Positions 41,038 to 46,415 of a stretch of 64,000 bases of DNA are shown here, one piece after another; positions within the stretch are counted from its first letter, which is position 1; each line of letters opens with the position of its first letter. A model generated the notes under the pieces. It ran no database searches, had not been told where the DNA came from, and was given only the letters and a program-made list of their open reading frames with translations. The position numbers and the translations under genes were made by a program. Where the stretch lies: contig JABILG010000018.1 in the NCBI GenBank assembly GCA_018654605.1, positions 88,702 through 152,701 on the forward strand. The letters run 5' to 3'. This DNA is from a bacterium (GTDB lineage: Bacteria > Desulfobacterota_D > UBA1144).

Positions 41038-41490
41038 TTAAATACTAGTTTTATTTTTAAATTCCCTTCTAAGCTCTCTTTTTAAGTCTTTCTTTTTTAA
41101 ATCAACTCGCTTATCGTAAAGCTTTTTGCCCTTACCAAGCCCTATTTCAAACTTAATAAGGTTCTTTTTTGAATAAACTCTTATGGGCACAAGAGTGTAT
41201 CCTTTAATCTTTGTTTTACCTATTAACTTCCTAATTTCAATCTTATTAAGAAGAAGCTTCCTATCTCTTGTTTCGTCGTGGGTAAAATATGATGAATTAT
41301 TATACTTAGGTATATAAGAATTTATAACAAAGACTTCTCCTTTTCTAATGATTGCATAACTCTCTTTGATACTTAACTGACCCTCTTTAATTGACTTCAC
41401 TTCTGAACCTGACAATACAACACCTGCCTCAAACTTTTCCTCGATATGAAAGTTTCTATTTGCATTTGGATTTGATGAATAAATTGCCAT
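41038..41490 (-). CDS. smpB: SsrA-binding protein
   Basis: NRNFHIEEKFEAGVVLSGSEVKSIKEGQLSIKESYAIIRKGEVFVINSYI. Confidence 0.96.
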   Translation of the reverse strand: MAIYSSNPNANRNFHIEEKFEAGVVLSGSEVKSIKEGQLSIKESYAIIRKGEVFVINSYIPKYNNSSYFTHDETRDRKLLLNKIEIRKLIGKTKIKGYTLVPIRVYSKKNLIKFEIGLGKGKKLYDKRVDLKKKDLKRELRREFKNKTSI

Positions 41491-41491
41491 A

Positions 41492-42466
41492 TTAAAAAAG
41501 AGTCATAACACCAAAAGCTGCTGAGATTGTTGTCAATGGAGCGAGATCTTCTTGAGTTTCAGTTGCATTCTTAAGTTTACGCACTGAATTTAAAGCATCA
41601 TAATACAACCTGTCATCATTAATTAATTTGCCTAAAGTTCCTTCTCCAGAATTAATTTTTGTTACCAAAGAGTTTAAATTCTCTGATAGGTTATTAATAG
41701 AGTTATAAAGCTCCTCATCGTTAATCAGCTTTCCGAGGGAACCATCTCCTGAAGCTAATTTATCTGTAAGCATGTTAATTTTTTCCAGAGTCTTTTTTGC
41801 TCTATCATATACAGACTTATCATTAACTAGAAGGCCCAAAGTACCATCACCTTGATCTATCTTTTTTGTAATATTAGAGAAAAAATCTAAGCTGGACTTT
41901 AAATCTTCATATATACCAGGGTCATTGATTAATTGACCAATAGTACCCTTGGAATTAGCTACGTTAGAAACAATTATATTTAAATTTGATAGTATTGACT
42001 TAATTTGGTCATTATATTCAAAAAGCTGAGAATTAAACATATCGACAGTTTTATCTAATTTTGTAACTAGAGAATTAAAATCAACGGGTTTAGCAGAGAG
42101 CAAGACTCCACGGTCGCTCAATATTCTTGAATTAGATGAACCAAAAGTGATGCCAACATAAGTTCTACCCAAAAGGCTGGTCATATTAATAGAAGCAATA
42201 GAATCGTCTTTTAAAATGACATCTTTGTCTATTAAAATTTCAACTGCAACATTTTGACCTGACAAAGTAATCGCCTTCACCCTGCCAACTTCAACACCCG
42301 ACAGCTTCACTTCATTTCCAACTCTAAGTTCGCCAACAGAAGAAAAATAACTTGTATAAGTATTTTCTTTCTTTAAAAAATCAACTCCTGATACTACCTC
42401 AAATAAAACTAAGAGCGTTATTATTCCTAAAACAAAGAAAGTTCCCAGCTGCATTTTCTTATTCAT
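41492..42466 (-). CDS. MCE/MlaD-family lipid transport substrate-binding protein
   Basis: N-terminal TM, YFSSVGELRVGNEVKLSGVEVGRVKAI MCE domain; repeated GxGTLGxLINDxxLYxxxxxxL segments. Confidence 0.9.
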   Translation of the reverse strand: MNKKMQLGTFFVLGIITLLVLFEVVSGVDFLKKENTYTSYFSSVGELRVGNEVKLSGVEVGRVKAITLSGQNVAVEILIDKDVILKDDSIASINMTSLLGRTYVGITFGSSNSRILSDRGVLLSAKPVDFNSLVTKLDKTVDMFNSQLFEYNDQIKSILSNLNIIVSNVANSKGTIGQLINDPGIYEDLKSSLDFFSNITKKIDQGDGTLGLLVNDKSVYDRAKKTLEKINMLTDKLASGDGSLGKLINDEELYNSINNLSENLNSLVTKINSGEGTLGKLINDDRLYYDALNSVRKLKNATETQEDLAPLTTISAAFGVMTLF

Positions 42467-42479
42467 ATGAATATTCTAC

Positions 42480-43193
42480 CTAAATTGGGGCTAAAATTGC
42501 ATTATTTGATTTTTTAACATCTGCGGAATCACCTGTTACGGCTATATTTCCATTCTCTAAAATCGATATCTTATCAGCTATTGAATATGCAAAATCAATA
42601 TCGTGAGTAACAACAATCTGAGTAATAGAGCTATTGTTTTTTAAGTTATTAATTATTTGTGAAATTATTTTAGTGTTAATAGGATCTAGCTCAGCGGTAG
42701 GTTCATCATACAAGAGTATGTTGGGAGAAATAATTAGAGATCTTGCAATAGCAACCCTTTTCCTCATACCACCACTTAAGTCTGAAGGCATTCTCAATGC
42801 AGCTTCTTCGATACCTAAATCTGACAAGATTTCATATGCTTTACTAACTCTTTCTTCTTTAGTACCAATTCTATGCTCATCAAGATAAATAGTAATATTA
42901 TCTAAAACACTTAAGGAATTTAACAAGGCTGATGACTGAAAGATATAAGATAGAACAAGGCTGTTCTTCTCAACACTTTTATGTATATCTTCATTGTCGA
43001 TCATAATTCTTCCAATATCAGGAACTATAAGTCCAATAATCATTTTCAACAAAACAGATTTTCCGGTACCCGATTTACCAAGAATAACATGAACTTCTTT
43101 ATTCAGGAATTCGCAATCCAGCTGATCAAGAACAGTCTTTCCATTAAAGCTTTTAGTGAGCTTTTCTAATTTTATTGAAGAAAAATTTTTCAT
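42480..43193 (-). CDS. MlaF-like ABC ATPase
   Basis: GKSGTGKSVLLKMIIGL, LSGGMRKRVAIARSL, LLYDEPTAELDPI. Confidence 0.92.
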   Translation of the reverse strand: MKNFSSIKLEKLTKSFNGKTVLDQLDCEFLNKEVHVILGKSGTGKSVLLKMIIGLIVPDIGRIMIDNEDIHKSVEKNSLVLSYIFQSSALLNSLSVLDNITIYLDEHRIGTKEERVSKAYEILSDLGIEEAALRMPSDLSGGMRKRVAIARSLIISPNILLYDEPTAELDPINTKIISQIINNLKNNSSITQIVVTHDIDFAYSIADKISILENGNIAVTGDSADVKKSNNAILAPI

Positions 43194-43957
43194 AAGAGAC
43201 CTACTAAGATTAACAATCTTGTAAGAAAGTAATCTAAAACTAAAATAGATATAAATGAAGCAACAACCGACTTAGTAACAGAATTTCCTATTTCTCTAGG
43301 TCCACCCGATGCCAGTAATCCCACTGAACATGACACTATTGAAATGGTAACAGCAAAGAATAGTGATTTAATAATGCCCACTGAAATATCTGAGATTGTA
43401 ACTACTTGACTAAGGTCGTTATAAAATGAAGAAAAAGAGACTGCTATGGTTTGATTCATAGAAGAAACAAACGAGCCTCCAAGCCATCCAATCAAATCCA
43501 TATAAATTACTAAAAAAGGTAAGGTCACAATACAAGCTAGAAACCTTGGAAGAACAAGAAATCTAACTGGATCAATCTTCATGGTTTCTAAAGCGGAGAT
43601 TTCCTCATAAATCTTCATGGATGAGATTTCGGCAGTTATAGAGGACCCAACCCTACCTGCCATCAGGATAGCCGCCATAACAGGCGCTAACTCTGTACAT
43701 AATGAAAGTCCAACAATGCCTCCAATTTTGTCCTCTATTCCATATCCAGACAATTGTATTCCTGTCTGCAAAGCTAAAACAGAACCTATAGATAATGAAA
43801 TGAGGGCTGCAACAGGGAGAGTCCTATTTCCCATATCAAAGACTTGGTAAAAGAACTTATCTGCATTGCTTGAAAAATATTTAATCGATTTCAAGGTCTT
43901 CCATAGAAGATCCAAAAATTCCCCTATTCCCACTGTTATCTTTACAAAACTATTCAT
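43190..43957 (-). CDS. MlaE-like ABC permease
   Basis: LCTELAPVMAAILMAGRVGSSITAEISSMKIYEEISALETMKIDPVRFLVLPR. Confidence 0.93.
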   Translation of the reverse strand: MNSFVKITVGIGEFLDLLWKTLKSIKYFSSNADKFFYQVFDMGNRTLPVAALISLSIGSVLALQTGIQLSGYGIEDKIGGIVGLSLCTELAPVMAAILMAGRVGSSITAEISSMKIYEEISALETMKIDPVRFLVLPRFLACIVTLPFLVIYMDLIGWLGGSFVSSMNQTIAVSFSSFYNDLSQVVTISDISVGIIKSLFFAVTISIVSCSVGLLASGGPREIGNSVTKSVVASFISILVLDYFLTRLLILVGLL

Positions 43958-45339
43958 AAACTTACAGGTATATATAATATTCTAATTTTTGTTTTCTCAC
44001 CAGTTTCGAATCCAAACAATCCGCCTAAAATACTAAATTTATTTGAATTTATTCCTGATTCATTTGAAACAATAGGTAAAATAAAGTTAACACTAAACTT
44101 CTTCCTTTTTTCAGCTTTATAGTTTTTATAACTTATAAGATTAAAGAGAATAGAGGTTTCAGAGGAGAAGTTATCATCTCTAATCCTAATTATGGACCAT
44201 AGAGGAGACCATATCTTTCTTACTTTAATATTATTAGAAAAGAAACTTTCAACAGGTGAAAAGATTCTGAGGTCGTACCCATTTAAATCTGAGTCAATTG
44301 AATATATAGGCCAAAAACTTGAGAACTCTTTTTTAATTATATTCTTTCTTAAGTCATAGTATGTATCTTGCTTGTACAAGAAAAACAAGAAACTTTTTGT
44401 TTTAAAATAATCTGTTCCTAAGATTTCATTCTTATACTTGTATATAGGCCACATGAAAAACCCTTTTTCAACATTCTTAGTTTTAACATAAGAATAGAAA
44501 GGGAAGAATCTTTTGCTTTTAATATTAACACCTTGCTTGTATTGAACGAAGGGCCATGGCATGTTGTATGTTTTCTGATTCCTAAGCTTGTCTACATAAA
44601 CATTAAAGAAAGGCCACAAATAAGTCCTTGCTTCATGAATAGTAGAAGTAGAAGAAAGATAGAAAGGGAAATATGCTTTCTCCTCTAAATTAAGCCCTTT
44701 CGTATTATCTTTTTTGTAGCTATAGATGGGCCACAAAAAGAACTTGCTCTCTTTAATTATTTTAGATCCCATATTATCTACTTTGTTCATATATCCAAAA
44801 AGAGGCCATAGTTTAAATCCTGATACATACTTTCCTTTGGTTTTGGAAATAATAGGCCACAATAAGTGTGTATTATGAGAATTCTTTTCTTTTGTTCTTA
44901 GATACAATGGGAAAAGAAAATAATTTATTTCATCTTTTGTAAATTTATTTTTTAAATTACCGTAAATTGGGAACAAAGAAAAGTAATTATTTTCTTCTTT
45001 TCCTGACCATGAAATATCTAAAATCGGAAAAATAGAAAAGGTCTTTTCCTGTAAATTATCATAATCATTAAAATTTTTATACCTTACAAGGTAAAAAAGA
45101 GTTTGAAATTGATTTTGTTGATTATCCTCTTGATAACTCATCATTGGATATAAAATATCCAATGACCTATATTTTAGTTCATAGTTCGCTTCGTAATAAA
45201 ATAATGGACGAAAAGCATATACCTTAGAACCCGAGTCTTTTTTAAATTCGAGCAAGGGTCCAAAAAAAGTTTGTTCATAAGATGGAGAGCTAGTAGGAAA
45301 TAATAGGATAAAGAAAAGTATGAGTAGAGATTTTGTCAT
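43954..45339 (-). CDS. exported protein of unknown function with repeated aromatic-Pro (LWPIY/FFPFY) motifs
   Basis: Signal peptide MTKSLLILFFILLFPTSSPSY; about a dozen [FLYWM][FWY]P[ILFM] motifs across 461 aa; 4-nt overlaps with mlaE-like gene and alr. Confidence 0.75.
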   Translation of the reverse strand: MTKSLLILFFILLFPTSSPSYEQTFFGPLLEFKKDSGSKVYAFRPLFYYEANYELKYRSLDILYPMMSYQEDNQQNQFQTLFYLVRYKNFNDYDNLQEKTFSIFPILDISWSGKEENNYFSLFPIYGNLKNKFTKDEINYFLFPLYLRTKEKNSHNTHLLWPIISKTKGKYVSGFKLWPLFGYMNKVDNMGSKIIKESKFFLWPIYSYKKDNTKGLNLEEKAYFPFYLSSTSTIHEARTYLWPFFNVYVDKLRNQKTYNMPWPFVQYKQGVNIKSKRFFPFYSYVKTKNVEKGFFMWPIYKYKNEILGTDYFKTKSFLFFLYKQDTYYDLRKNIIKKEFSSFWPIYSIDSDLNGYDLRIFSPVESFFSNNIKVRKIWSPLWSIIRIRDDNFSSETSILFNLISYKNYKAEKRKKFSVNFILPIVSNESGINSNKFSILGGLFGFETGEKTKIRILYIPVSL

Positions 45340-46415
45340 TTATAAATCCTCTTGACTCTTTTACTGATTCCACAAACTATCTCATATGGTATTGTATCCG
45401 CTAAATCAGCAACTTGGTTTGCATTTATTTTCTCAGTACCAAAAATAATTACTTCATCTCCTACACGGGGATTATCTATTTCCGATAAGTTTATTATAGT
45501 CAGGTCCATACATACCCTTCCTAAAATATCACAATTCTTATCTTTACAAGTCACCTTCCCTTTATTTGAAAGTGCTCGTGGGAGACCATCAGCATATCCT
45601 ATCGGGATAACTCCTATTATCATTTCTTCTTTTGCAATAAAAGTTCTACCATAACTTACCGAATCGCCTTTCTTAATATTTCTGATTTTTACTATTGAGG
45701 TCTTTAATTCCATGACAGGAATGATTTCACTATTTTCTTCTGTAACTAGGCCATAAAGGGCAAGCCCTGGCCTTGCCATATTAAGGTGTGACTTAGGAAA
45801 GTTAATAATTCCTGTGCTATTTGAAATATGGAAAAAATCTATATTAGGTATTGCATTCTTAAAACTCATAATAATTTTATCAAACTCATCAATTTGAGAT
45901 TCAGTAAACTTAGAATCTACCAAGTTAGATTCAGGAAAGTGTGTGTAGATACCCTTTAAGGACAGGTTAGGATTTTTATTTATTATACTTATTGACTCTA
46001 TTATTTGCTCTCTATCAATCCCAAGCCTATTCATACCGGTATCAATCTTTAGATGAAAAGAGATACTATCAAGATTTAATGAATCAATAAAATAAAGCTG
46101 AGAAATGTCATATATCGTAAAGAGAATATTTTTATCTATTGAGCTAATTATCTCTTCATTCGTTATTGAACCGAGTATTAAAATATTGCTCTTTACACCT
46201 GCTGACTTTATCTCCATAGCTTCTTCATAGGTTGCAACAGCTAGGTTATTTATGTTTAGCACAGATAATTTCTTGCTTACCTCTATTGAACCATGTCCGT
46301 AAGCGTTAGCTTTTACAACGGCTAGAATCTCAACCCCATCTTGCAAGATATCCTTTATAGCTTCTACATTTCTTTCAAGGTTATCTAGTTTAATTTCTGC
46401 ATATGCAAATGACAT
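45336..46415 (-). CDS. alr: alanine racemase
   Basis: ILAVVKANAYGHGSIEV, HLKIDTGMNRLG, ARPGLALYG. Confidence 0.96.
   Translation of the reverse strand: MSFAYAEIKLDNLERNVEAIKDILQDGVEILAVVKANAYGHGSIEVSKKLSVLNINNLAVATYEEAMEIKSAGVKSNILILGSITNEEIISSIDKNILFTIYDISQLYFIDSLNLDSISFHLKIDTGMNRLGIDREQIIESISIINKNPNLSLKGIYTHFPESNLVDSKFTESQIDEFDKIIMSFKNAIPNIDFFHISNSTGIINFPKSHLNMARPGLALYGLVTEENSEIIPVMELKTSIVKIRNIKKGDSVSYGRTFIAKEEMIIGVIPIGYADGLPRALSNKGKVTCKDKNCDILGRVCMDLTIINLSEIDNPRVGDEVIIFGTEKINANQVADLADTIPYEIVCGISKRVKRIYK

Follow-up and report, generated by a model that had tools for sequence, protein, structure and literature searches.

The route by which lipid travels to and from the outer membrane outside the Proteobacteria is an open question, because the transporter MlaEFD is near-universal, occurring in almost all diderm phyla, and MlaABC, including MlaA and MlaC, is found mostly in Proteobacteria (PMC10665443, Grasekamp and colleagues). 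The question is raised in concrete form by a gene run in a genome of the Ca. Dadabacteria/UBA1144 group (source assembly of 1.02 Mb, ~92% complete). In the window, the whole 64,000-nucleotide stretch of DNA that was analyzed, an mlaEFD set adjoins a gene for an exported repeat protein, here termed X. Does X belong to the transporter, and if so, which part of it might X supply?

The gene run and its Mla partners

The genes lie on the same strand in the order alr-X-mlaE-mlaF-mlaD-smpB, as follows.

45336..46415, minus strand: alr, alanine racemase (TIGR00492, 2.8e-111; Pfam Alr match)
43954..45339, minus strand: X, exported aromatic-Pro hairpin-repeat protein (461-aa ORF; signal peptide at residues ~1 to 20)
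43190..43957, minus strand: mlaE, MCE lipid ABC transporter permease, 255 aa (PF02405, 1.7e-70; TIGR00056 above cut-off)
42480..43193, minus strand: mlaF, ATPase, 237 aa, located between mlaE and mlaD (PF00005, ABC_tran, 1.4e-30)
41492..42466, minus strand: mlaD, 324-aa protein with one MCE domain at 34-109 (PF02470, 1.4e-18) and a long C-terminal region
41038..41490, minus strand: smpB, downstream end of the run (BLAST homology to relatives)

The reading frame for an exported protein at 43954-45339 had originally been predicted without a strand; it is present, encodes 461 aa, and was assigned to the minus strand. The 4-nt stop/start overlaps claimed for X with alr (45336-45339) and with mlaE (43954-43957) agree with the gene coordinates, and mlaE overlaps mlaF by the same length (43190-43193). 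The gaps between mlaF and mlaD and between mlaD and smpB are 13 nt and 1 nt, respectively. The last gene is probably a bystander, adjoining the run in only part of the class. By Pfam, a MlaE permease, an ATPase, and an MCE domain are encoded by adjacent genes, which together make up an MCE ABC transporter core, with the MCE domain being the sole Pfam match over the 324 aa of MlaD. No MlaB-type STAS protein was noticed in the gene run from alr to smpB.

MlaC and MlaA had been reported as missing near the locus, and at Pfam sensitivity the same was found genome-wide. Neither MlaC (PF05494) nor MlaA (PF04333) was detected in the relatives set, which includes the window genome (0/61 genomes for each), and the positive controls, E. 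coli and Caulobacter, were matched. The MlaA search covered this set of 61 genomes, and the MlaC search also covered 32 genomes of other groups that carry X; MlaC was not found in 29 of these. The remaining three carry MlaC on a contig other than that of X, in two cases beside separate mlaF/mlaD copies. In the window genome itself, one MlaE, one MCE protein, and one Omp85 were identified by Pfam, and it is therefore a diderm with a single MCE system. LptD and TamB gave no match there at Pfam sensitivity. With Omp85 present and these two unmatched, the outer membrane may be devoid of LPS or may employ divergent proteins; since the assembly is incomplete, each single absence in this genome is provisional.

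Other MCE arrangements were observed in the same class. A second MCE set at two loci (L167 and L169) consists of a long MlaE of 387 to 406 aa, possibly with an extra N-terminal domain, followed by mlaF and mlaD. In L167, this paralogous mlaE-F-D set ends with a lipoprotein in place of X, which had a weak, below-cut-off match to ABC_trans_aux, and this arrangement is consistent with each MCE operon having a single outer-membrane partner dedicated to it. Separately, several Dadabacteria (five loci) have a lone mlaE with an unannotated lipoprotein of ~190 aa directly upstream and no mlaF/mlaD directly beside it. The one such lipoprotein searched had no Pfam match, and the two genes possibly represent another MCE-partner pair.

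Repeat and predicted fold of X

The motif aromatic/Leu-Pro-hydrophobic was found at 15 sites in mature X, compared to 2.6 on average and at most 11 in 20,000 shuffles. The repeat described in the original prediction is therefore real, while its spacing of 20 to 45 aa was too loose, as the motif turns recur mostly every 17 to 25 aa and at ~20 aa for turns of one kind. The count of about a dozen repeats also needed revision, since X was modeled by AlphaFold as an all-beta protein of 44 strands, equivalent to ~22 hairpin units, with agreement between two runs. The strands are 4 to 9 residues long, mostly 5 to 8, and are connected by aromatic-Pro turns alternating with polar turns. The run with 21 sequences gave a pLDDT of 87.5 and a pTM of 0.57, and an AlphaFold2 run with 56 sequences gave 91.3 and 0.72, with five of five models above a pLDDT of 90. 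In the alignment of 56 sequences from several phyla, 11 Pro columns were invariant, and hence the homologues are full-length orthologues in one register rather than independently grown repeats.

The fold check called for by the original prediction thus upheld an exported, all-beta protein, though not an integral outer-membrane barrel. These two properties would suit a beta-barrel channel in the outer membrane. However, the strands of such barrels span ~9 to 12 residues and those of X, on the evidence of the model, are mostly 5 to 8, Pro occurs in nearly every second turn, and no global match to barrels with a useful score was obtained. Because the strands are short and some homologues are lipoproteins (see below), X is unlikely to span the membrane, and the channel reading is considered very improbable.

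When both models were compared to the PDB with Foldseek, no solved fold was found to match X globally. At E<=10 there were 731 to 732 matches, and among those listed, all TM-scores were <0.32 with an rmsd of ~15 to 37 A; no fold was therefore assigned. The likeness was local only and involved beta-meanders (propellers, OspA, teneurin). A beta-propeller fold was set aside on the basis of a target-normalised TM-score of ~0.3 or below. No known lipid-carrying transport fold was matched by Foldseek; TamB/AsmA/LptA-type folds were absent among the best 50 matches, and TamB/AsmA matches were also absent by Pfam.

These results bear on a reading in which X forms an elongated sheet that reaches across much of the periplasm and itself conducts lipid as a functional counterpart of AsmA, TamB, and VPS13. 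The 44 short strands of the repeat array would, by arithmetic, give a contour of ~21 nm at ~4.8 A per strand if X were one open sheet, and TamB was unmatched in the window genome. Against such a bridge stand the best 50 Foldseek matches, none of them of the TamB/AsmA/LptA type, and the long C-terminal region already present on MlaD, so that this reading is regarded as improbable. An amphipathic sheet was also sought. There was no consistent hydrophobic face along the predicted strand register (0.012 compared to a random mean of 0.08), and therefore no hydrophobic groove is claimed for X from its sequence. Nor is a tube, groove, or bridge proposed from the models. Coevolution contacts calculated by mean-field DCA from 111 sequences (effective number 76) were dominated by gap and phylogeny noise, none being usable, a failure attributed to too few sequences.

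Family, spread, and gene neighborhood of X

X matched no family in Pfam at E<=1, NCBIfam, or PHROGs, and PDB sequences gave chance-level matches only (E of 1.2 or worse). In particular, the PqiC/ABC_trans_aux domain (PF03886) was not found in X by Pfam at E<=1. The family is thus unnamed in Pfam and NCBIfam, and no published description was found in the open-access papers searched.

With X alone as the query, 54 loci were obtained from 84,980 species genomes, and a second sample provided 40 X loci from Planctomycetota. The X profile matched loci that had been left out of it at 1e-60 to 1e-102. Profiles built from these loci themselves, many of which are metagenome contigs, showed X immediately upstream of mlaE in 36 loci of the first sample and immediately downstream of mlaD in 9 (45/54), and upstream of mlaE in 38/40 of the Planctomycetota loci. 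The original prediction had named the loss of this linkage in other genomes as grounds for its rejection; the linkage was found to hold. It was also observed in two gene orders and has therefore outlived rearrangement. The median distance between the X domain and the MlaE domain was 47 nt. Among the nine other loci of the first sample, one lay on a contig that ended at X, one had <500 bases downstream, and seven had no mla gene in the flank examined. Overall, 11 of 94 X loci had no mla neighbor, with flanks long enough for at least a partial judgement in nine. The seven mla-free loci of the first sample were mostly from Thermodesulfobacterium-type genomes, in which X adjoins coaD. Four such X-coaD loci were noted to have no mla in the flank, and in two of these a further exported protein is encoded next.

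Two further candidates from these neighborhoods were discarded. Long ORFs in high-GC loci had hinted at fusions of the X and mlaE genes, but these proved to be separate reading frames, and the 300-aa gene that follows mlaD in many Dadabacteria, considered as an extra partner, resembles a ParB-type protein with no evident role in lipid transport.

The original prediction had limited X to one lineage, a scope that was too narrow, as the family spans several phyla. X linked to mla was found in Dadabacteria, other Desulfobacterota, Geobacter-type genomes, Planctomycetota, Verrucomicrobia, Lentisphaerae, and Lindowbacteria. Every X-bearing genome in the set of 61 relatives has MlaE. In Planctomycetota, MlaE was detected in 148/149 genomes and X in 76/149; X is therefore missing from about half of these genomes, as it is from one genus-level group of the relatives, with mlaE kept in both. 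Longer multi-repeat relatives of X, often of >1000 aa, were observed in Kiritimatiellae and Planctomycetota (six examples).

X might instead merely be co-transcribed with mla and alr and serve an unrelated envelope function, for instance as a binding protein or peptidoglycan factor. The presence of alr beside X across Dadabacteria would be compatible with this, as would the few lineages that carry X with no mla nearby and the existence of X paralogues with more repeats. Outside Dadabacteria, however, mlaEFD is the common neighbor in two orders and alr adjoins X in only 1/32 loci surveyed. Because alr is so seldom found there, the common partner of X is the mla set rather than alr, and an unrelated function appears quite improbable. 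The steady association with mlaEFD across phyla, in both orders, makes it very probable that X is a dedicated component of the MlaEFD system.

Proposed role of X and comparison with known systems

The X protein of the window has a signal peptide and no lipobox. A lipobox following a hydrophobic stretch was present in at least 30 of 114 homologues, none of which had Asp at position +2. This residue is known from E. coli to cause retention in the inner membrane (the Lol rule), which may not hold in these phyla. Its absence therefore favors the outer membrane for those homologues, and their sequences suggest that the lipidated forms are anchored there. On the basis of the signal peptide and the lipoprotein forms, X is likely to be a partner of MlaD on the outer-membrane side or in the periplasm, with the contact to MlaD presumed.

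The main rival to a lipid-handling X gives the protein a passive part in structure or assembly, as a PqiC-like outer-membrane lipoprotein that docks or stabilizes the MCE tube and makes no contact with lipid. The lipoprotein forms among the homologues are in keeping with this, as is the lack of a detectable hydrophobic face on the predicted sheet, and PqiC provides a precedent, being an outer-membrane lipoprotein toroid that stabilizes the outer-membrane interaction of PqiABC (PMC10897342). Yet X is large and very aromatic-rich at fixed sites, seemingly beyond what simple docking would require. A purely passive role is thus judged rather unlikely. That X itself provides a lipid-conducting surface is a guess, and a somewhat doubtful one.

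Taken as a whole, the data are best explained by X being an exported MlaEFD subunit, on the outer-membrane side or periplasmic, that enables the passage of lipid, an explanation held to be likely. All evidence on its role is computational, and it shows an export signal, a predicted fold class, gene linkage, and the absence of the usual partners. In the proposed mechanism, the MlaE permease, the MlaF ATPase, and the long MCE protein MlaD would form the transporter, and X would be its exported subunit. X would leave the cytoplasm via its signal peptide and, in the many relatives where it appears to be lipidated, would probably be held at the periplasmic face of the outer membrane. There, the long body of all-beta repeats would partner the MlaD hexamer from the outer-membrane side or the periplasm, filling the place that other MCE systems give to MlaA/MlaC, to PqiC, or to a barrel at the C terminus of MlaD, and would let lipid move between MlaD and the outer membrane. 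Retrograde transport may be suggested by analogy only.

In groups that mostly have no MlaA/MlaC, X probably supplies the outer part that is missing from their membrane-lipid transport machine. Because those two proteins are mostly proteobacterial (PMC10665443), X is more likely part of a parallel solution than a replacement for them. The MlaD barrel was not found in the PVC group, where X is widespread, and "as yet unidentified proteins" were raised as a possibility (PMC10665443); X fits this gap. For Planctomycetota, Verrucomicrobia, Dadabacteria, and other Desulfobacterota, X offers a specific candidate for the missing part that can be put to the test. Within the open literature searched, X is a previously undescribed exported subunit of an MCE transporter. 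A wider claim would make X a new class of periplasmic lipid conduit, in which an elongated repeat of aromatic-Pro beta-hairpins with no relation to AsmA/TamB/LptA connects an MlaEFD complex lacking MlaA/MlaC to the outer membrane in several phyla; this claim is considered unlikely.

Local structural likeness was seen to OspA-type, MORN, and YD-shell beta-meander proteins, which share repeated antiparallel hairpins with X but differ in that their TM-scores were ~0.1 to 0.3 and no sequence match was present. Among transport systems, the window shares the inner-membrane core of MlaE, MlaF, and MlaD with the Mla system of E. coli (MlaFEDB with MlaC and MlaA). It differs in having a long MlaD and, in the window genome and 60 others, no MlaC/MlaA, with the operon containing an exported all-beta repeat protein instead. 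In PqiABC (PMC10897342), too, an MCE protein is paired with an outer-membrane lipoprotein of its own, although X is much larger than PqiC, consists of a beta-hairpin repeat, and has no PqiC/ABC_trans_aux match. The MlaEFD system of Veillonella parvula (PMC10665443) shares the three-gene core, the long MlaD, and the lack of MlaA/MlaC; its MlaD, however, carries a beta-barrel at its C-terminal end and is followed by genes for TolC and TamB, whereas here X constitutes an extra exported component.
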